Shown here: positions 1,892-33,623 of the stretch, piece by piece
Numbering within the stretch: position 1 is the stretch's first letter
Layout of the letters: each line of letters begins with the position of its first letter
Origin: Haloarculaceae archaeon
GTDB lineage: Archaea; Halobacteriota; Halobacteria; Halobacteriales; Haloarculaceae
Direction: 5' to 3'
Length of the DNA: 34,684 nt
NCBI GenBank assembly: GCA_007122455.1
Contig: SKTU01000018.1
Coordinates: 1-34,684, forward strand
The notes under the pieces: generated by a model
The model's input: the letters and a program-made list of their open reading frames with translations, nothing else
Told to the model about the DNA's origin: nothing
The model's database searches: none
Made by a program: the position numbers and the translations under genes

Positions 1892-2018
1892 CGGTGCGGT
1901 GATTTCCGTGGGGAACCGTTCGTCTGCGGTCGATCGATGGAGATCGAATATCGAGTCATGTGTTGGCATACAGCTCGATGGCTGAAGAACGGTTCGGTAG
2001 GGCGCGACGACGATTCAA

Positions 2019-2657
2019 CTATTCGACGTTGTGTTCGACGAGGTTCTTCACGCCACGCCGGAAGCGCTCGGAGGCGGAGCTCTCGGAAACCCCGAGCCGA
2101 CCGGCGAGTCCCGCGAGCGTCGATTCTCGTGGAATCTCGAGATAGCCACACTCGACTGCCTCGAGCAGCGTCTCGCGCTGGGCATCCGTCAGCGTCGAGC
2201 GACCCCTGCGGCGCTCGGTGGCGTGTTCGTACAGCCGCTCGAACCGAAAGTCGATCTCGTGGTCGCGACAGAACTGATAGATGTGCTCGTAGGCCTCCCG
2301 ATCGGGGAACAGCACCTGCGCGAACCACCCGTCGTTCGTTCCGACGGACTCCTGAAGAACGGCTCCGACCCGGATGTACTCCTGTACGAGGCTCTGTTCG
2401 GCCCCGTCGGGAGTGTAATCCACACGGTAGAGGCGTCGCTCGCCGAGATCGACGAGCACGATCGGATTCTCCAGGTACGGATCGTCACCGATCGCCGCGT
2501 CGACGCAGTCGAAATCGTCGCTGGTGATCCAGGCGATCGTCTGTGTCAGACCGTTCTCCCGGGAGTAGGTCTCCTCCCACTCGATTCTGATGTCCGGAAT
2601 GCGGTGTAGCGCCTCGCCGAACAGCGGGTGATCGATGGTGAATTCGGCTATGAGCAT
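2019..2657 (-). CDS. Bat-type helix-turn-helix regulator (HTH_10 family)
   Basis: 212 residues. The last 55 residues (LTDAQRETLLEAVECGYLEIPR, then LAGRLGVSESSASERFRRGVKNL) form the HTH_10 domain of bacterio-opsin activator-like transcription factors, a large haloarchaeal family. The first 150 residues resemble the sensory/association domain that precedes this HTH in the family; no heme or metal motif is evident. The stop codon is 127 bases from the preferred start of the NUDIX gene. A TATA-like tract at 2694-2705 lies upstream, about 43 bases from the ATG. The target genes and ligand cannot be inferred. Confidence 0.88.
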   Translation of the reverse strand: MLIAEFTIDHPLFGEALHRIPDIRIEWEETYSRENGLTQTIAWITSDDFDCVDAAIGDDPYLENPIVLVDLGERRLYRVDYTPDGAEQSLVQEYIRVGAVLQESVGTNDGWFAQVLFPDREAYEHIYQFCRDHEIDFRFERLYEHATERRRGRSTLTDAQRETLLEAVECGYLEIPRESTLAGLAGRLGVSESSASERFRRGVKNLVEHNVE

Positions 2658-2693
2658 TGGAGATCGTTCGCCCGATGAAATAATCCTCGAGGA

Positions 2694-2705
2694 CTAATAT
2701 AAAAC
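2694..2705 (-). promoter_or_regulatory. TATA-like element before the HTH_10 regulator
   Basis: The AT-rich tract ctaatataaaac stands out in a 151-base divergent intergenic region. Read on the minus strand it gives GTTTTATATTAG, a good archaeal TATA element, centred about 43 bases before the ATG at 2657. It implies a 5' leader of about 15 bases. Confidence 0.45.
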
Positions 2706-2808
2706 ACCGCAATATTTCGGCTAGCAACTGATCTGTCCGTCTCTCTCGAATATCACCGATGGTTTCGATTTCCCGTCCCGACCCCGCTGACCAGTTCACG
2801 ATCGTTCC

Positions 2809-3138
2809 ATGATCCGCAACGACGACCCGGAGGCGCTCGATCGAATGTTCGACGCCCTCAGCCACCCGCTCCGTCGTCGCGTTCTCATGCTCGCCTACAG
2901 GAACGCGACCCGGGACGACCAGTTCCCCGTCGAGGAAATCGAAACCGAAAACGACGACGTCGAACAGTTCGCAAACGAACTGTACCACATCCACCTCCCG
3001 AAACTCGACGACGAGGAATACATCGAATGGGATAGGGACAGTAACTCGATCCGACGGGGACCGGCGTTCGACGACGTCGAACCGCTGCTTCGGCTGATGG
3101 ACGACAACCAGGACGAGCTCCCCGAGGAGTGGCCGTAG
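2809..3138 (+). CDS. Small winged-helix protein, DUF7344-like
   Basis: 109 residues. The start LDRMFDALSHPLRRRVLML is the ArsR-like winged-helix opening typical of the many haloarchaeal small regulators grouped under DUF7344. The second part (ELYHIHLPKLDDEEYIEWDRDSNSIRRGP) matches the recognition helix and wing pattern, in which an HxHLPKL motif precedes the wing. It likely acts as a DNA-binding regulator or phosphate-response-type protein of the family; the target is unknown. It is divergent from the HTH_10 gene and separated by 151 bases. Confidence 0.8.
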   Translation: MIRNDDPEALDRMFDALSHPLRRRVLMLAYRNATRDDQFPVEEIETENDDVEQFANELYHIHLPKLDDEEYIEWDRDSNSIRRGPAFDDVEPLLRLMDDNQDELPEEWP

Positions 3139-3225
3139 TCGTCGACGTCCGCGGAGATGTTCCGGTTTCGATCGCCCGTCGGTCGGAAACGACGGCCTTT
3201 TTCAGTATCGGCGAGAAGACGAGAT

Positions 3226-3432
3226 ATGGCATTCGAAAAGGGCGATCGCGTCGTCCTGCATGACGAACACAGCGAGTACGACGGGGAGACCGGCGAGATC
3301 TCACAGGTCTCCGAAACGATGTTCGGCGATGCGACCTACATCGTCCAGTTCGAGGAGGGACAGGAAGCCGGCATCGCCGAAGACGCGCTCGAACCGGCGA
3401 GCGAAGACGACGAAGACGAAGACGAGGAGTAG
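3226..3432 (+). CDS. Small acidic SH3-like protein, conserved in haloarchaea
   Basis: 68 residues. The pattern FEKGDRVVLHDEHSEYDGETG, followed by TYIVQFEEGQEAGI, suggests a small beta-barrel of the SH3/KOW type, then a tail of almost only D and E. I recognise the general type but not a characterised function. The ATG at 3226 is chosen because the upstream in-frame extension (from 3157) is arginine-rich and unlike a haloarchaeal protein. It is followed after four bases by the next gene, so the two are probably co-transcribed. Confidence 0.7.
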   Translation: MAFEKGDRVVLHDEHSEYDGETGEISQVSETMFGDATYIVQFEEGQEAGIAEDALEPASEDDEDEDEE

Positions 3433-3436
3433 TCCC

Positions 3437-3871
3437 GTGAGCGCCGTCCCGTTCCACTACGTCGATCTCCGAACGTTCTGCTACGAGACGGAGGACGAGC
3501 AACGGGTCGAGGCGGCGCTTCGGACGTTTCTCCCCGACGACGTCGAAATCGAGCGCGAGGTGTCGGAAGGACACCACGGCGACCGGATCCTCGTTCTGTC
3601 GATCAGGTTGGAGCGCGCCGACGAGGTGCGTCACGTGCTCGGCGAACTGGCGACACTGGAGTCGTTCGATCGGCTGCTCGAGGAGCTCGACGATCGGATC
3701 GACGACAACTGCGCGCTGTTCCTTCAACTCGACAAGCAGGCCGCTTATAAGGGCCACGTCGAACTCGGATCGGGCCTGATGCTCCGCGCGAAGGTCGAGG
3801 CGTATCCGGCGAAAAAAGAGCACGCGGTCGAGAACGCCCGGGAAGCGCTCGAGGCGCTGGCGGCGTCCTAA
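3437..3871 (+). CDS. RNA-binding domain protein (PF01877-like)
   Basis: 144 residues from a GTG start. The sequence VDLRTFCYETEDEQRVEAAL, then EREVSEGHHGDRILVLSIRL and the end segment with LFLQLDKQAAYKGHVEL match the archaeal RNA-binding family formerly DUF54, a small ribosomal-L5-like fold. GTG at 3437 follows the previous stop by four bases, and a GAGGAG at 3424-3429 provides a suitable Shine-Dalgarno match, which decides the start. Role: probably RNA metabolism; no specific partner can be named. Confidence 0.85.
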   Translation: MSAVPFHYVDLRTFCYETEDEQRVEAALRTFLPDDVEIEREVSEGHHGDRILVLSIRLERADEVRHVLGELATLESFDRLLEELDDRIDDNCALFLQLDKQAAYKGHVELGSGLMLRAKVEAYPAKKEHAVENAREALEALAAS

Positions 3872-3876
3872 TCCGG

Positions 3877-5175
3877 TCAGCGATCCCCGCGGAGCTCGTT
3901 CATGTGGTCGATACGGCGCTGGAGCAGCGCCGCCGTTCCGATGTCGTGGCGGGCCCGGAGCCCCTCCTCGCCGGCTCGTGAGAGCGCGGCTTCGGCGATC
4001 GCCTCCGCGTCAGCGATCGTGTCGGCGATCCCGACGACGGCGAACGATCGGGACGTGGTCGTGTAGATGCCGTCTTCGCGGGCGTCGACGCTCGCGTAAA
4101 ACAGCCGAGCGTCACCGGCAGATTCGGCGTCGATCTCGATCGAAGCGCCGGCTTCCGGGTCGGTCGGGTAGCCCGCCGGAACCGCGTACTTGCAGACGGT
4201 CGCCTGCTCGGAGAACTGGAGTTCGGGGAGTTCCTCGCCGTCGCGGGCCGCTCGAAGCACGGAGACGAAATCGGTATCCAACACCGGGAGCGTGTTCATC
4301 GCCTCCGGATCGCCGAACCGGGCGTTGAACTCGATCACCTTCGGTCCGTCCGCGGTGAGCATGAACTGCCCGTAGAGGATACCTCTGTAGGCCGGCATCG
4401 CGTCGACGACGCGCTCGAGTATCTCGACTGCGGCGTCGTAATCCGCTTCCGACATGAACGGGAGTTCGAACGTCGCGTCGCTGTAGGACCCCATTCCGCC
4501 GGTGTTCGGTCCCTCGTCGCCCTCGTAGGCGCGCTTGTGGTCCTGGACCGCCGGCGACGTGCGAACGGTTCCGTTGGCGACGAACGCCTGGACGGTGAAC
4601 TCCTCGCCGACGAGTCGCTCCTCGAGCACGAACGCGTCGTAGTCGCCGCCGAGGACGTAGTCGATCCCCTCCACCTTCGTGATCTGGTCACCGGTGACGC
4701 GGACGCCCTTTCCGCCGGTGAGTCCGCGAGGCTTGATCGCTAAGTCGCCGTCGTACTCGCGGATGTAGTCGGCGGCCGCGTCCGGATCGTCGAACGTCTC
4801 GAACGTCGGGCACCCGGGGATCCCGTGTTCGGCCATGAACTCCCGCTGAAACGCCTTATCCGTCTCGATGCGAGCCTCGGCTTCGCGCGGGCCGAACGCG
4901 TAGACGCCGGCCGACTCGAGCGCGTCCGAGACGCCGGCGTTCAGCGCTGACTCCGGACCGATCACGGCGAGCGTTGCGCCGACGGATTCCGCGTAGTCGA
5001 TGATTCCCGACGCGTCCGTCTCCTCGATCGTCTCGAACCCCGTCGCGAGTTCGACGATACCGGGGTTGCGGTTCGACGCACAGGCAAACAGCGTCGCGTC
5101 CGCCGACTCGGAAACGGCGTGGGCGATGGCGTGTTCGCGGCCGCCGCCGCCGATCAGCAGCACGGTTTCGGTCAT
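3877..5175 (-). CDS. purD: Phosphoribosylamine--glycine ligase
   Basis: 432 residues, the usual length for GAR synthetase. It joins phosphoribosylamine and glycine using ATP in the second step of purine synthesis. It opens with VLLIGGGGREHAIAHAV, the N-terminal PurD signature, followed by an ATP-grasp core with KPRGLTGGKGVRVT, then NTGGMGSYSDATF and a C-terminal part with IEFNARFGDPEAM, all hallmark motifs. ATG at 5175 is chosen since MTETVLLIGG is the natural N-terminus. It converges with the RNA-binding gene (five bases between stops). The 70 bases upstream contain a 16-base palindrome. Confidence 0.97.
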   Translation of the reverse strand: MTETVLLIGGGGREHAIAHAVSESADATLFACASNRNPGIVELATGFETIEETDASGIIDYAESVGATLAVIGPESALNAGVSDALESAGVYAFGPREAEARIETDKAFQREFMAEHGIPGCPTFETFDDPDAAADYIREYDGDLAIKPRGLTGGKGVRVTGDQITKVEGIDYVLGGDYDAFVLEERLVGEEFTVQAFVANGTVRTSPAVQDHKRAYEGDEGPNTGGMGSYSDATFELPFMSEADYDAAVEILERVVDAMPAYRGILYGQFMLTADGPKVIEFNARFGDPEAMNTLPVLDTDFVSVLRAARDGEELPELQFSEQATVCKYAVPAGYPTDPEAGASIEIDAESAGDARLFYASVDAREDGIYTTTSRSFAVVGIADTIADAEAIAEAALSRAGEEGLRARHDIGTAALLQRRIDHMNELRGDR

Positions 5176-7005: not shown

Positions 7006-7767
7006 TTACTCCTGCTCGACGAACTCGACGCCGACCGACAGATCCCAGACGAGGCCGTACTCCCCGGTTCGTCGCTCCTCACAGATGCCGTTCACCGACT
7101 GGGCGCCCTCGTGGGAACCGTTCCACGTGACCAAATATCGGTCGGTTTCGAGATCCGTACCCGACTCGACCGTTCCACCTACGCGGGGGAACCGGCCCGC
7201 CTGTCCGTCCGCCAGCGAGACGACACTCTCGCCGTCGCCGGCGGTGAACGCCGCACCTTCCTGAAGATCGCCGGCGGTGAGCCGGACGCCGGCAGTCAGG
7301 TTGACGAGATTCAGTTCCAGTCCCGGACGCTGGTCCGTACTGGCGGCCACCCACAGCCAGTGGTGGTACCGATCGTCGTCGGTCCGGTAGATCGCGACGC
7401 AGGCGTCCTGAACGAACGCCACGGCCTCCGAATCGATGGGCTGGGGATCCAGCGTCGCCGCGGCGGTGTCGTCGGGTCGTGGTGTCTCGGGCGCGAACTG
7501 GTGGGTGAACGCGGCGACGAACTCCCCTCGTCGGTCCGCCTCGATCCCCCAGACCCCGCTCTCGCCGTAGCGGCCCTCCATCTCCTCGACGTACGACTCG
7601 AAGGCGTCCTCGTCGCGCTCAGCGTCGGACTGTGGCGACAGCTGCCAGCTCGTCGATCGATCGATCCGGGTTCGACGCTCCGTCACTCGACGCTCGACGC
7701 AGCCGGCCAACCCGCCGGCGATCAGCCCACCGGTGACCTGGAGGGCTCGCCTGCGTGACAGCTTCAT
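7006..7767 (-). CDS. Predicted Tat-exported lipoprotein of unknown function
   Basis: 253 residues. The N-terminus MKLSRRRALQVTGGLIAGGLAGC combines a twin-arginine motif with a hydrophobic stretch and a lipobox LAGC (lipid-anchored cysteine at residue 23), typical of haloarchaeal secreted lipoproteins. The mature part has no domain I recognise. It includes a patch with W and aromatic residues (YHHWLWVAAST) and ends in VWDLSVGVEFVEQE. ATG at 7767 is chosen for the signal peptide and because a TATA element lies 28 bases upstream. It is divergent from the YyaL-type gene. Confidence 0.8.
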   Translation of the reverse strand: MKLSRRRALQVTGGLIAGGLAGCVERRVTERRTRIDRSTSWQLSPQSDAERDEDAFESYVEEMEGRYGESGVWGIEADRRGEFVAAFTHQFAPETPRPDDTAAATLDPQPIDSEAVAFVQDACVAIYRTDDDRYHHWLWVAASTDQRPGLELNLVNLTAGVRLTAGDLQEGAAFTAGDGESVVSLADGQAGRFPRVGGTVESGTDLETDRYLVTWNGSHEGAQSVNGICEERRTGEYGLVWDLSVGVEFVEQE

Positions 7768-7787
7768 ATCCGCCCGGTAGAGCCGAC

Positions 7788-7800
7788 GGGTAAAATACCC
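7788..7800 (-). promoter_or_regulatory. Palindromic TATA element of the Tat lipoprotein gene
   Basis: GGGTAAAATACCC is a perfect palindrome (GGGTA-AAA-TACCC). Its centre lies 27-28 bases before the ATG at 7767, the right distance for a leaderless transcript. It lies in the 87-base region shared with the divergent YyaL-type gene. Confidence 0.55.
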
Positions 7801-7854
7801 GGCCATCCGTCCGAGAGCCACACCGCTTACCAGCGAGGAACCCCCATACGTACC

Positions 7855-9963
7855 ATGGAAAACCGTCTCGCCGAAACCGCATCCCCGTATCTCCGCCAGC
7901 ACGCCGACAACCCGGTGGCGTGGCAGCCATGGGACGAGACGGCGCTCGAACTGGCCCGCGAGCGCGACGTCCCGATATTTCTCTCGATCGGCTACTCGGC
8001 CTGCCACTGGTGTCACGTGATGGAGGAGGAGAGCTTCTCGAGCGATCCGATCGCCACGCGTCTGAACGAATCGTTCGTGCCGATCAAGGTCGACCGAGAG
8101 GAGCGGCCGGACATCGACTCGGTGTACATGACCGTCTGCCAGCTCGTCCGCGGCAGCGGCGGCTGGCCGCTCTCGGTCTGGCTGACTTCCGACGGCAGAC
8201 CGTTTCACGTCGGGACCTACTTCCCGCCCGTGCCCCGGCAGGGAATGCCGAGCTTCCAGCAGGTGCTCGACGGGATCGTCGACGCCTGGAACGACCCCGA
8301 CGAGCGGGACGAGCTGGAAGCGCGCGCCGACCAGTGGGCCGCCGCGGTCGAGGGTGAACTCGAGGAGACGCCGGAGACGCCCGGGAACGCCCCCGAACGT
8401 CAGCTTCTCTCGTCGGCCGCGGATGCCGCAGTTCGAGGTGCCGATCGCGACTACGGTGGCTGGGGGAGCGGACAGAAGTTCCCGCATCCTGGGCGGATCC
8501 ACCTGCTGCTTCGAGCGGCCGACCGAACCGGTCGAGACGTCTATCGGGACGTCGCGACGGAGACGCTTGACGCGATGGCCTCGGGCGGGCTCTTCGACCA
8601 CGTCGGCGGCGGCTTCCACCGCTACTGCGTCGATCGGGAGTGGGTCGTCCCCCACTTCGAGAAGATGCTCTACGACAACGCCGAGCTACCGCGGGCGTTC
8701 CTCGCGGGATATCAGCTGACTGGCGAGGACCGGTACGCTCGGGTCGCTCGGGAGACGTTCGCCTTCCTCCAGCGGGAGCTCACGCATCCGGAGGGCGGTC
8801 TCTACTCGACGCTCGACGCCGAGAGCGAACGCGACGGCTCCCGCGAGGAAGGGGCGTTCTACGTCTGGACGCCCGAGGAGATCGGCGCCGTCGTCGACGA
8901 CGACCTCGACGCGGATCTGTTCCGCGACCGCTACGGCGTCACCGAGTCGGGCAACTTCGAGGGACGAACCGTCCTCACAGAATCGGCGTCGATACCGGAA
9001 CTCGCCGCGGAGTTCGATCTCGATCCCGAGAACGTTCGAGCGCGACTCTCGAGAACTCGACAGCGCGTTCTCGAAGCCCGCGCCGACCGTCCACGACCGC
9101 CCCGTGACGGAAAGATACTCGCCGGGTGGAACGGGCTGGCGATCTCCGCACTCGCCGAGGGAGCGCTGGTTCTCGATCCGTCCTACGCTGACGCGGCCGC
9201 GGACGCCCTCTCCTTCTGTCGCGATCGACTGTGGGATCCGAAGCGGCGGCGGCTCGACCGCCGGTTCGAGGACGGACGAGTCGGGATCGACGGCTACCTC
9301 GAGGATTACGCGTTCCTCGGAAGAGGAGCCCTGGACTGCTATCAGGCGACCAGCGACGTCGACCAGTTGGCGTTCGCAGTCGAACTCGCCCGAGTCATCG
9401 GCCGAACGTTCTACGACGCCGACCGAAAGACGCTCTACTTCACTCCGGAGGGTGGCGAGTCGCTGCTCGCTCGCCCCCAGGAGCTAACCGACACGTCGAC
9501 GCCCTCCAGCACCGGCGTCGCAGTCCAGCTCCTGGACGCAGTCGATCGGTTCGTCCCGGACGAGGGGCTCGGCGAGATCGCCGAGAGCGTCCTGCGGACC
9601 CACGGGAGCACGCTCGAGCGGAACCCGCTCACGCACAGTTCGCTCGTGCTCGCCGCGGACAGCCGCGCGGTCGGCGCGCTGGAGCTGACAGTGGCGAGCG
9701 ACGGCCTCCCGGACGCGTTCCGGGAGGCGGTCGCCGAGCGATACCTCCCGACTCGACTGCTGTCGGTTCGTCCGCCGACCGACGACGGCCTCGACGAGTG
9801 GCTCGACGCGCTGGGCGTCGACGCGGTTCCGCCGATCTGGGCCGACCGGACGGCACGCGACGGGAAGCCGACGGTGTACGCCTGCCGGTCGTTCACGTGC
9901 TCGCCACCGAACCAGGAGATGCGCTCGGCCCTCGAGTGGGCCGATCGGCTCGCCCCCGAGTAA
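7855..9963 (+). CDS. Thioredoxin-domain protein of the YyaL/SSP411 (DUF255) family
   Basis: 702 residues, the usual length. The N-terminal 160 residues are the DUF255 thioredoxin-like domain with GYSACHWCHVMEEESF; the CxxC is C50-H-W-C53. The rest is an (alpha/alpha)6-barrel glycosidase-like region (for example FDHVGGGFHRYCVDREWVVPHFEKMLYDNAELPRAFL), as in human SPATA20 and bacterial YyaL. The biochemical activity of the family is not well established. The stop codon abuts the convergent winged-helix gene, with no bases between. Confidence 0.95.
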   Translation: MENRLAETASPYLRQHADNPVAWQPWDETALELARERDVPIFLSIGYSACHWCHVMEEESFSSDPIATRLNESFVPIKVDREERPDIDSVYMTVCQLVRGSGGWPLSVWLTSDGRPFHVGTYFPPVPRQGMPSFQQVLDGIVDAWNDPDERDELEARADQWAAAVEGELEETPETPGNAPERQLLSSAADAAVRGADRDYGGWGSGQKFPHPGRIHLLLRAADRTGRDVYRDVATETLDAMASGGLFDHVGGGFHRYCVDREWVVPHFEKMLYDNAELPRAFLAGYQLTGEDRYARVARETFAFLQRELTHPEGGLYSTLDAESERDGSREEGAFYVWTPEEIGAVVDDDLDADLFRDRYGVTESGNFEGRTVLTESASIPELAAEFDLDPENVRARLSRTRQRVLEARADRPRPPRDGKILAGWNGLAISALAEGALVLDPSYADAAADALSFCRDRLWDPKRRRLDRRFEDGRVGIDGYLEDYAFLGRGALDCYQATSDVDQLAFAVELARVIGRTFYDADRKTLYFTPEGGESLLARPQELTDTSTPSSTGVAVQLLDAVDRFVPDEGLGEIAESVLRTHGSTLERNPLTHSSLVLAADSRAVGALELTVASDGLPDAFREAVAERYLPTRLLSVRPPTDDGLDEWLDALGVDAVPPIWADRTARDGKPTVYACRSFTCSPPNQEMRSALEWADRLAPE

Positions 9964-29099: not shown

Positions 29100-30287
29100 A
29101 TGTCCGAATTTGCAGGCTATCGGCGCGACGACGGGCGGATCGGCGTCCGGAACCGCGTCGCCGTGATCCCGATCTCGGTCGCGGCGAGTACGATCGCCGA
29201 ACGGATCGCAGCGGAGGCCGGAGCGGGCGTCACCTCGACGCCCCACCAGATGGGAACCGAACAGCCGGCTGCAGCGCGAGCCCAAACCGAGCGAGTGCTC
29301 ACAGGTATCGGCCGGAATCCGAACGTCGGGGCGGCGCTCGTCGTCTATCTCGGCACGGAGGTCGCCGACGTCGACGGGATCGCCGACGGGATCGCCGACG
29401 TGGGAACGCCCGTCGAGACGCTCTCGATACGGTCGGCCGGCGGCGCGCGCGACACCGTCTCCGCCGGCGTCAGTATCGCCGACGAGCTATCCGACGAGAT
29501 CGCGAGCGCCCGCAGGGAAACCGCCGACGCGAGCGAGCTGATATTTGCCGTCGAATGCGGCGGAAGCGACGCCACGAGCGGTATCGCGTCGAACCCCGCC
29601 GTCGGAAACGCGTGCGATCGGTTGATCGACGACGGCGGGACCGCCTGCTTCAGCGAGACGCCGGAGTTCATCGGTGCAGAGCACGTCCTCGCCGAGCGAT
29701 GCGCCGACGAGGAGACGCGGCGCCGGCTGCTCGAGCGCGTCGATCGTCGCGAGGCGATCGCCGACATGATGGGCGTCGACCTCCGCGAGAGTCAACCGTC
29801 CCCCGGAAACAAGGAGGGTGGACTCACCACCATCGAGGAGAAGAGCCTCGGGGCGATCTCGAAGGGCGGGACCAGTCCGATCCGCGGCATCGTCGACTAC
29901 GGGGAGCCGCTTCCCGTCGGCGGCGGGTTGGTCCTGATGGACACGCCCGGCTACGACGTCGAGAGCGTCGTCGGGAAGGTCGCCGGCGGCGCCCAGATCG
30001 CCGCGTTCACCACTGGACGCGGCAGCACGACCGGCAACCCGATCGCACCCGTGATCAAGGTCACCGGTAACGCCCGAACGTGGGACCGGATGGCGAACAA
30101 CATGGACGTGAACGCGAGCACGATACTCGACGGCGAGCCGATCGACAGCGTCGGCGAGCGGATCTACGAGACGCTGCTGTCGGTGGCTGACGGGCGACCG
30201 ACCGAGGCAGAACGGCGCGGGATGGAGGAGTTCGCGATCAACGAGATCCAGCCCCGCGAACTCGAGGCGCTGGGGGAGCCGGTATGA
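29100..30287 (+). CDS. UxaA/GarD-family dehydratase large subunit A
   Basis: 395 residues. The start GYRRDDGRIGVRNRVAVIP and the C-terminal half are strongly family-like: CGGSDATSGIASNPAVG (153-169), SPGNKEGGLTTIEEKSLG (234-251), KGGTSPI, MDTPGYD and FTTGRG, shared with altronate and galactarate dehydratases and sulfolactate sulfo-lyase. The family's N-terminal HxxGC and GLGCE motifs are here HQMGTEQ (49-55) and YLGTEV (83-88), each with Cys replaced by Thr. It overlaps the SAF gene by four bases (ATGA). Likely removes water (or another group) from a sugar-acid-type substrate; the substrate is unknown. Confidence 0.9.
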   Translation: MSEFAGYRRDDGRIGVRNRVAVIPISVAASTIAERIAAEAGAGVTSTPHQMGTEQPAAARAQTERVLTGIGRNPNVGAALVVYLGTEVADVDGIADGIADVGTPVETLSIRSAGGARDTVSAGVSIADELSDEIASARRETADASELIFAVECGGSDATSGIASNPAVGNACDRLIDDGGTACFSETPEFIGAEHVLAERCADEETRRRLLERVDRREAIADMMGVDLRESQPSPGNKEGGLTTIEEKSLGAISKGGTSPIRGIVDYGEPLPVGGGLVLMDTPGYDVESVVGKVAGGAQIAAFTTGRGSTTGNPIAPVIKVTGNARTWDRMANNMDVNASTILDGEPIDSVGERIYETLLSVADGRPTEAERRGMEEFAINEIQPRELEALGEPV

Positions 30288-30610
30288 AGGGGATCGTCCT
30301 CGACGACCGCGCGCTCCTGATGGTCGAGTCGGACACGGTCGCGACCGCGCTGGACGACCTCGAGCGTGGGACGGAGCTCTCCGTCGCGGCAGTCGGTAGC
30401 GACCGGGACCGCGTCACGCTCACCGAGGATATCGCCTTCGGCCACAAGTTCGCGATCGAGCGGATCGACGCCGGCGACCCCGTCGAGAAGTACGGCGAGC
30501 GGATCGGCAGCGCCAGCCGCCCGATCGAACCGGGCGAGTGGGTGCACACGCACAACTGCGAGAGCGATCGCGGCCGCGGGGATCGCACCGCCGAGGGGGC
30601 CAACGCATGA
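30284..30610 (+). CDS. SAF-domain small subunit of a UxaA-type dehydratase
   Basis: 108 residues. The core of about 90 residues (GIVLDDRALLMVESDTVATAL, then DIAFGHKFAIERIDAGDPVEKYGERIGSA) is the SAF domain found at the N-terminus of one-chain altronate dehydratases and as the small subunit in split systems. The end PIEPGEWVHTHNCES supplies the conserved HTHN motif of UxaA/SuyA small subunits. It sits between the two large paralogues with ATGA overlaps at both ends (30284-30287, 30607-30610), so equal expression is likely. Confidence 0.9.
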   Translation: MKGIVLDDRALLMVESDTVATALDDLERGTELSVAAVGSDRDRVTLTEDIAFGHKFAIERIDAGDPVEKYGERIGSASRPIEPGEWVHTHNCESDRGRGDRTAEGANA

Positions 30611-31731
30611 GCTCTCGAGGCGTGACGCCGACCGAGGAGCTCTCCTTCGACGGCTATCGCCGCGACCGCGGCTCCGTCGGGATCCGGAACCGGCTCGTGG
30701 TGTTACCGTCGGTCATCTGTTCGCGAACCGTCGCCGACCGGATCGCCGACGCGGTTCCGGAGGCGGTCAGCACGCCGCACGACCACGGTTGCGCACAGCT
30801 CGGCGACGACAGCGACCGCACCGAGCGCACGTTCGTCGGCGTCGCGTCGAACCCGAACGTCGCCGGCGCTGTCGTCGTCGGTCTGGGATGTGAGACGATC
30901 CAGAGCGGAACGATCGTCGACCAGTTACGCGAGCGAGACGTTCCCGTATCCGAGGTGGTCATTCAGGAGGCCGGTGGAACGGAGGAGTGCTACAGAGCGG
31001 GCGTCGAGCGCGCGGAGGGGATCCTCGCGAACGCCCGTGAGGAGCCTGCCGGTCCGCTCGGGCTATCTGATCTCACCGTCGGCGTCGTCAGCGGCGACTT
31101 CCGCCCCTCGTCGCTCGGGAGCGCCGATCCGCTCGTCGGGGAGGCGGTCGACCGGATCGTCGACGCCGGTGGACGAGCGCTGATCGCGGGCGGCGAGCGT
31201 ATCGACAGCCACGGAGAGGCGATCGCCGACCGGCTCGCGACCGACGCCGCCGAAGTCGGGTTCGAAGCCGTGACGACCGGTACCGACCGGTCGTCACCGG
31301 TCTCCAGTCCGCGCCAGCGCGCGGCTGCCAGCTCCTTCGAGGAGGTCGCCGCACCGTGGAACGATCACCCGATCCGGGACGTCCTCCCGTACGGGGCGTC
31401 TGCGACCCACGACAGCGGTGTCGCGCTCGTGGACACGCCCTCGGAGTTCGGCGAGGCTGCGACGGCGCTCGCCGCCGCCGGCGCACAGCTCGTGATCCAC
31501 GTCACCGCCGACGGCGATCCGGCCGGCCATCCGATCGTCCCGACGATCAAGCTGACGGGGGACGGGGCGACCTACGAGGCGCTCTCGACGGATATCGAAT
31601 TTTTCGCAGCGGAGACGGAAAGCGACGCGCTGATCTCCAGCGTCGTGAACACCGCTCGCGGGGACGAAACGCGGAGCGAGGCCCACGGCATCACCACCTT
31701 CGCGATCACGCGCGTCGGCCCGTCGACGTAG
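30607..31731 (+). CDS. UxaA-family large subunit B, divergent paralogue
   Basis: 374 residues. It shares the fold start (GYRRDRGSVGIRNRLVVLP) with subunit A and keeps the N-terminal family motifs that A has lost: HDHGCAQ (58-64), SNPNVAGAVVVGLGCE (81-96), and EAGGTEE. By contrast the C-terminal half lacks CGGSD (VVSGDFRPS occupies the place), lacks GNKEGGLTT and EKSLG, and reads HVTADGDPAGHP where A has FTTGRG. PTIKLTG is retained. It starts in a four-base overlap with the SAF gene. Together with A this looks like one active site split over two chains. Confidence 0.88.
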   Translation: MSSRGVTPTEELSFDGYRRDRGSVGIRNRLVVLPSVICSRTVADRIADAVPEAVSTPHDHGCAQLGDDSDRTERTFVGVASNPNVAGAVVVGLGCETIQSGTIVDQLRERDVPVSEVVIQEAGGTEECYRAGVERAEGILANAREEPAGPLGLSDLTVGVVSGDFRPSSLGSADPLVGEAVDRIVDAGGRALIAGGERIDSHGEAIADRLATDAAEVGFEAVTTGTDRSSPVSSPRQRAAASSFEEVAAPWNDHPIRDVLPYGASATHDSGVALVDTPSEFGEAATALAAAGAQLVIHVTADGDPAGHPIVPTIKLTGDGATYEALSTDIEFFAAETESDALISSVVNTARGDETRSEAHGITTFAITRVGPST

Positions 31732-33080: not shown

Positions 33081-33623
33081 TCAAACGGCTATCCATCCCC
33101 CGACGGGGCGGGGTCTAACTATGCCGGCTATCTCCCCGCCCGGTTCGAAACCAGTGTGCACGTTCACGACGCCGTTGCCATCCACGAGTTCCTCCCAAAC
33201 GAGATCCCCAACACCACCCACCTCATCGTCGACGTCGTCGTCGGTGATGGTTCCACTGATGCTCGCGTCATTGATCGGGCCCCCCTCGTAGAGTGGCACC
33301 CAGATGGGACCGTCCGCCCGTCCGTCGCCGTGGATATGGGCCGCAAACGCACCTTGCTCTAAATTCGCGACGTGAAGTTCGTAGTGGACAACGAGCTCCC
33401 CATTATTTGAATCGCCCTCCAGCTCCAGCGCTCCCCGACCTCTGGAACGTACTTTGCTGTGTCCCGGAATCGATGGATTGTCGGAGAGACGAGCAAAGAA
33501 ATTGGGATCCGGATGCGATCCTCCATGGTCGGCAGCTGCGATCCCTGAACCGAAGACGATTCCGCCACCGAGCCCGAGTGTCTTCAATACCGAACGACGC
33601 GATGCGTGTTTTCGATCAGTCAT
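33081..33623 (-). CDS. Tat-exported CHRD-domain protein
   Basis: 180 residues. The N-terminus carries a Tat signal (SRRSVLKTLGLGGGIVFGSGIAAA; no lipobox cysteine), so it is exported. The rest is a CHRD domain: RGRGALELEGDSNNGELVVHYELHV, QGAFAAHIHGDGRADGPIWVPLY, ending GEIAGIVRP. CHRD domains occur in chordin and in many secreted prokaryotic proteins; the role is not defined. A possible TATA tract (ACTTATCG on the minus strand) lies about 50 bases before the ATG. Confidence 0.9.
   Translation of the reverse strand: MTDRKHASRRSVLKTLGLGGGIVFGSGIAAADHGGSHPDPNFFARLSDNPSIPGHSKVRSRGRGALELEGDSNNGELVVHYELHVANLEQGAFAAHIHGDGRADGPIWVPLYEGGPINDASISGTITDDDVDDEVGGVGDLVWEELVDGNGVVNVHTGFEPGGEIAGIVRPRPVGGWIAV

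Follow-up and report, generated by a model that had tools for sequence, protein, structure and literature searches.

A window of 34,684 nucleotides from a Haloarculaceae archaeon (assembly GCA_007122455.1, contig SKTU01000018.1; "the window" below means this whole stretch) carries an operon for a large subunit A, a SAF-domain small subunit and a second large subunit B of the UxaA/GarD dehydratase superfamily (Table 1). The two large chains have lost complementary parts of the conserved family residues, and this reciprocal loss is real and conserved. We consider it probable that the three proteins assemble into one hetero-oligomeric dehydratase with a single composite active site, to which B contributes its domain 2 and A its domain 3. 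The genes, the partition of residues, its conservation, the co-occurrence of the genes, the selection on B and the predicted single-chain folds were computed; the complex, the A-B contact, the metal centre and the class of substrate are what we infer from them.

Both junctions of the operon, A/SAF and SAF/B, are ATGA overlaps, as the sequence-only reading had it. A frameshift or a misread gene in the window was ruled out, as the frames and both junctions are clean. The start of B was taken as the ATG at 30607; the mechanical list of open reading frames gives a longer version, beginning with a GTG at 30538. All Pfam matches exceed their cut-offs: A scores 101.8 bits for GD_AH_second and 318.3 bits for GD_AH_C, the separate SAF gene between the large genes scores 41.7 bits, and B scores 126 bits for GD_AH_second and 81.2 bits for GD_AH_C, the last being a partial match confined to profile positions 114-240. 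A and B share 31% identity, with E = 4.3e-83 in a profile comparison, and their sequences support paralogy. They are the only two GD_AH_C matches in the genome to which the window belongs (2.93 Mb in 149 contigs, 87% complete). Neither reaches the galactarate dehydratase equivalog NCBIfam TIGR03248 (cut-off 730.85 bits; A 197.5 bits, B 67 bits). GarD (6u7l) was the only solved relative recovered by sequence, and its fold is predicted for A and for B as single chains. The domains, the SAF domain and the predicted fold are thus common to UxaA, GarD and the proteins described here.

The search of the haloarchaeal genomes and that for related loci used queries derived from this operon, and the related loci were found with A. 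The large chains were aligned with relatives from the fetched loci and with Escherichia coli UxaA and GarD. As a reference we used 20 distinct one-chain members, namely UxaA, GarD and those large chains that stood unpaired in the loci found with A; the partial L068, L062 (whose B side runs off the contig) and the SuyAB-like loci discussed below were omitted. Family columns were those at least 90% identical in this set, and a column was counted as kept at 80% or more and as lost at 20% or less. Exactly four of the 81 family columns are cysteine (GarD C144, C179, C215 and C288), each in 20/20 members; three lie in domain 2 and one, that of the CGGSD motif, in domain 3. E. coli UxaA and GarD hold these cysteines and the motifs in one chain, whereas here they are divided, with three of the cysteines on B and one on A.

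The A chain of the window retains CGGSDATSG, PSPGNKEGG, EKSLG and FTTGRG, in agreement with the sequence-only reading. That reading had also noted cysteine-to-threonine changes in HQMGTEQ and YLGTE; these are present, but the count of two was incomplete, as a third position differs in the same way (Ala28 in A, Cys38 in B). In B, HDHGCAQ and GLGCE are intact and the four C-terminal motifs of A are gone. The loss in B had been described as total, which does not hold, since parts of the domain-3 scaffold, for instance the PIVPTIK segment, remain.

The same division was found in haloarchaea and in Bacillales. Broken, partial or divergent loci (L048, L050, L079, L104, L107-L110) and identical rows were left out of the column counts; L001-L003 are copies of the window, and some of L004-L014 are apparently conspecific with some of L015-L049. 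In haloarchaeal A, the first three cysteine columns are without cysteine in 46/46 rows (one being gapped at the first) and the fourth is cysteine in 46/46, whereas haloarchaeal B has the three domain-2 cysteines in 43/43 rows and the fourth in 2/43. Similarly, all 22 A rows from Bacillales are without the three cysteines (with a gap at the third column) but still have the fourth, and the 22 B rows from this order have the three in 22/22 and the fourth in 0/22. Of the 81 columns, 33 are kept by haloarchaeal A but lost by B, five show the reverse, 31 are kept in both, two are lost in both and 10 are intermediate; the corresponding numbers in Bacillales are 31, five, 27, two and 16. In both groups, all columns lost from A and kept in B lie in domain 2, and all those kept in A and lost from B lie in domain 3. 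The three cysteine columns belong to both sets of five, and the remaining two columns differ between the groups. Chance or artefact as the source of the partition was rejected, because it recurs in two distant groups. The reciprocal loss proposed from the single operon is confirmed, and it is stronger than first claimed.

Conservation along the chains follows the same division. The mean pairwise identity of A is 0.795 in domain 3 and 0.607 in domain 2 among haloarchaea, and 0.805 and 0.649 in Bacillales; for B the respective values are 0.522 and 0.603, and 0.492 and 0.681. One-chain members (0.493 in domain 3, 0.384 in domain 2) resemble A in having the more conserved domain 3, so it is the pattern of B that is inverted. 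The ratio of nonsynonymous to synonymous substitution rates (dN/dS) of B is 0.12-0.33 in 15/15 pairs, indicating purifying selection. These values speak against the view that B is a decaying duplicate held in place by linkage, as does the invariance of its cysteine module in archaea and bacteria. Many family positions have been lost from B, it evolves faster than A, and L048 and genome G156 have a broken B frame, all of which would suit decay; yet the frame of A is also broken, in L050 and in genomes G126 and G156. In one further genome (G245), B crosses a contig end. We regard decay as very improbable.

The two large genes also occur together. In the genome searches, the best six candidates per genome were scored, so that further distant copies may be missed, and sequences were read for unmatched or odd genomes, A and B being assigned elsewhere by identity and position. 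A family match was found in 53/293 genomes of the order of the window organism. Six of the 53 have a SuyAB-like gene only, and the other 47 have A, one of them (G034) with a SuyAB-like gene too. B adjoins A in 46/47 of the A-bearing genomes. The exception, G141, holds a deletion remnant of both genes, an open frame (L099:2050-2976) in which we read the front half of A fused to the last part of B, SAF having been lost. Genomes with A and no B partner, which would have spoken against an obligate pair had they been numerous, are thus represented by this remnant. The order is A-SAF-B in 44/46 haloarchaeal loci; L041 ends soon after A, and L047 gave no SAF match between its two large genes. The bacterial loci have the order B-SAF-A (23/23). 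In a sample of 299 genomes of the Bacillus order, a close B was found in four, including the starting genome, each with adjoining A and SAF; three of these are B-SAF-A and one has a third order, SAF-A-B (L113, genome G472).

Such constant pairing bears on the idea that A and B are independent enzymes, each using SAF, that catalyse different reactions within one operon. Both chains are predicted to fold well alone, as this idea would have it. However, the counted loci offer a single SAF gene for both, B adjoins A nearly everywhere, and each chain is without what the other has; we therefore consider independent enzymes improbable, though somewhat less so than decay.

Two further observations concern repeated pairs. 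In genome G028, a second, divergent A/B pair with no detected SAF (L104:2247-4641) accompanies a normal triplet (L105); its A has an altered NK loop and its B carries Asn in place of the first cysteine. At L053, two pairs of SAF and large genes (1983-3478 and 7142-8637) of equal length, score and motifs lie within 7 kb, reflecting either duplication or assembly redundancy.

Should the family depend on all four cysteines and on the domain-3 motifs at once, the one pairing in this operon able to form a site would be B domain 2 with A domain 3, which would place the site between chains. Under the composite-site proposal, domain 2 of B would supply a three-cysteine module (Cys38, Cys62 and Cys95), probably binding iron or an iron-sulfur centre. 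Domain 3 of A would supply the CGGSD cysteine and the loops PSPGNKEGG, EKSLG, MDTPGYD and FTTGRG for substrate and metal. A complete site would then exist only between these two domains, one per A-B pair, and the mirror site of A domain 2 and B domain 3 would be dead. The enzyme would most likely dehydrate an aldonic acid to a 2-keto-3-deoxy acid. GarD is said to dimerise through its second domain and to bind its metal in the third, which would agree with a site between chains.

A biochemical parallel comes from the D-arabinonate dehydratase C785_RS13685, a member of the same superfamily that dehydrates an aldonic acid and has four conserved iron-related cysteines (PMC6336799). The available part of that paper describes these cysteines as conserved across the superfamily, with the exception of the sulfolactate sulfo-lyase SuyAB, and connects them with a shared iron site. 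Their spacing, taken from the text of the paper rather than from its alignment, fits the four columns found here. SuyAB is the only characterised heteromeric member named in that part of the paper, beside a two-gene L-fuconate dehydratase inferred from context, and no pair of large paralogues is described in it. In the open-licence literature, no enzyme of the A-SAF-B form was found among the matches listed, in line with the sequence-only reading, which knew of none. A-SAF-B is a new variant inside a known superfamily. Comparison with IlvD/EDD gave no significant sequence relation (hhalign of the B alignment against a single E. coli IlvD sequence, probability 0.2%), and domain 2 of B gave a partial fold match.

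The main reason for caution over a split site is the SuyAB-like enzymes. SuyAB has its SAF and large subunits on separate chains, as A-SAF-B does. Seven haloarchaeal loci (L096-L098 and L100-L103) carry SAF and large pairs with CATSD/AHAGE motifs. Their neighbours, scanned in two loci, include TauE and a 2-hydroxyacid dehydrogenase in L097 and Ldh_2 in L101, suggesting by analogy that these may be sulfolactate sulfo-lyases. The large subunits are without the three domain-2 cysteines, like A and unlike B, and retain the fourth. The earlier statement that known members carry both motif sets in one chain therefore holds for the 20 one-chain relatives but not for these seven proteins. They raise the alternative that A and SAF are a complete enzyme of the SuyAB kind, with no need of domain-2 cysteines, and that B regulates, stabilises or delivers iron from outside the active site.

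Several points favour that alternative or weigh against a site shared by the two large chains. At the three columns, the SuyAB-like large subunits carry Tyr, Arg and Gly in 7/7 loci, with SAF as their only partner and no B adjoining them, so that loss of the same cysteines does not by itself demand B. Six of the seven genomes have no other family match at threshold, and the seventh (G034) carries an A/B pair at another locus. Of the two large chains, A is the better conserved, its dN/dS being lower than that of B in 15/15 pairs. Ldh_2 adjoins one A-SAF-B locus (L017) as well as L101, and neighbours thus do not cleanly separate the two kinds. In each of the two groups, 2/81 family columns are lost from A and B alike. 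Finally, the assignment of the four cysteines to the active site is itself a proposal of the authors of PMC6336799, who also made Cys-to-Ser variants. On the other side, B retains its cysteine module in all 43 haloarchaeal and 22 Bacillales rows while its domain 3 drifts, which is unexpected for a scaffold. We consider an accessory role of B unlikely, although clearly less so than the other alternatives, and the composite site remains our preferred explanation.

The history of the pair may be less simple than the duplication followed by subfunctionalisation that had been proposed. Paralogy of A and B and their conserved reciprocal loss accord with that proposal. In a tree of 72 rows, B of haloarchaea and B of Bacillales group together against the rest (100/99) and the two A groups stand apart, with long branches involved. 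Neither holding all A as one clade (p-AU, the approximately unbiased test probability, 0.294) nor holding haloarchaeal A with B (p-AU 0.186) was rejected. These tests appear compatible with both a single and a repeated origin of the split.

One bacterial B gene, in the metagenome-assembled genome "bacterium isolate RSA8" (L079:4545-5672), has an otherwise open frame with one internal TGA at 4701-4703, exactly at the cysteine codon of HxxGC. The genome (G296) has SelB above the cut-off and two selenocysteine tRNA genes with anticodon TCA, at L130 and L131; these differ within the one assembly, pointing to two copies or a mixed bin. Given the in-frame TGA at a cysteine codon together with SelB and these tRNA genes, a selenocysteine form of B is likely in this bacterium, and a sequencing error is possible. 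The predicted RNA fold 3' of the TGA is weak (z -1.32; 22/200 shuffles as good). No further B with a TGA of this kind was seen, whether in six genomes of the order or in the listed matches from 398 genomes of the phylum.

The neighbours of the operon in the window, one gene for an enoyl-CoA hydratase and one resembling an anion transporter (assigned by eye), do not indicate a pathway. Near the triplet in 36 haloarchaeal loci, the families (one member of each named by Pfam) include an enolase-type dehydratase in 19, FAA hydrolase in 15 and Gfo/Idh in 12; single loci have PdxA with an SBD_N/NBD_C kinase, a dihydrodipicolinate synthase (DHDPS)-type aldolase, a thiamine pyrophosphate (TPP) enzyme or Ldh_2. 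Among 24 bacterial loci, aldehyde dehydrogenase occurs in 19, FAA hydrolase in 18 and KdgT in 15. Truncated at the edge of its locus, the aldehyde dehydrogenase reaches 749 bits, the cut-off for alpha-ketoglutaric semialdehyde dehydrogenase being 770. Such neighbourhoods make a role of the operon in the catabolism of sugar acids likely and, in Bacillales, a pentonate pathway plausible. Apart from the operon, the minus strand of the window at 33081-33623 encodes a small protein that starts with a twin-arginine-like signal (RRSVLKTLGLGGG), as judged by eye.

Table 1. Genes of the operon and the codons at the family cysteine columns, in positions of the window
Feature	Position	Strand	Description
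Large subunit A	29100-30287	+	395 residues; GD_AH_second and full GD_AH_C
A codon 28, Ala	29181-29183	+	column of first family cysteine (GarD C144)
A codon 53, Thr	29256-29258	+	column of second family cysteine (GarD C179, HxxGC)
A codon 86, Thr	29355-29357	+	column of third family cysteine (GarD C215, GLGC)
A codon 153, Cys of CGGSD	29556-29558	+	fourth family cysteine (GarD C288), retained
SAF-domain small subunit	30284-30610	+	108 residues; Pfam SAF; ATGA overlap with A
Large subunit B	30607-31731	+	374 residues; GD_AH_second and degenerate GD_AH_C; ATGA overlap with SAF
B Cys38 (SVIC)	30718-30720	+	first domain-2 cysteine
B Cys62 (HDHGCAQ)	30790-30792	+	second domain-2 cysteine
B Cys95 (GLGCE)	30889-30891	+	third domain-2 cysteine

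Taken as a whole, the system may be a natural trans-complementing enzyme, a view to which we give an even chance: a duplicated UxaA-type dehydratase of haloarchaea and Bacillales, perhaps arising in separate events, reduced so that each A-B pair retains a single working site, B holding a three-cysteine module of iron-sulfur type and A the substrate domain, with selenocysteine perhaps replacing a B cysteine in one bacterium. If this is true, it would be a natural complementation experiment in a poorly understood family of iron enzymes, in which the residues of the iron-type module are separated from those of the substrate module, and it would imply that active sites of the UxaA/GarD superfamily generally lie between chains. 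Neither large gene should then be assayed alone, and genes such as those named only "UxaA family hydrolase" in plasmid records would gain a meaning.
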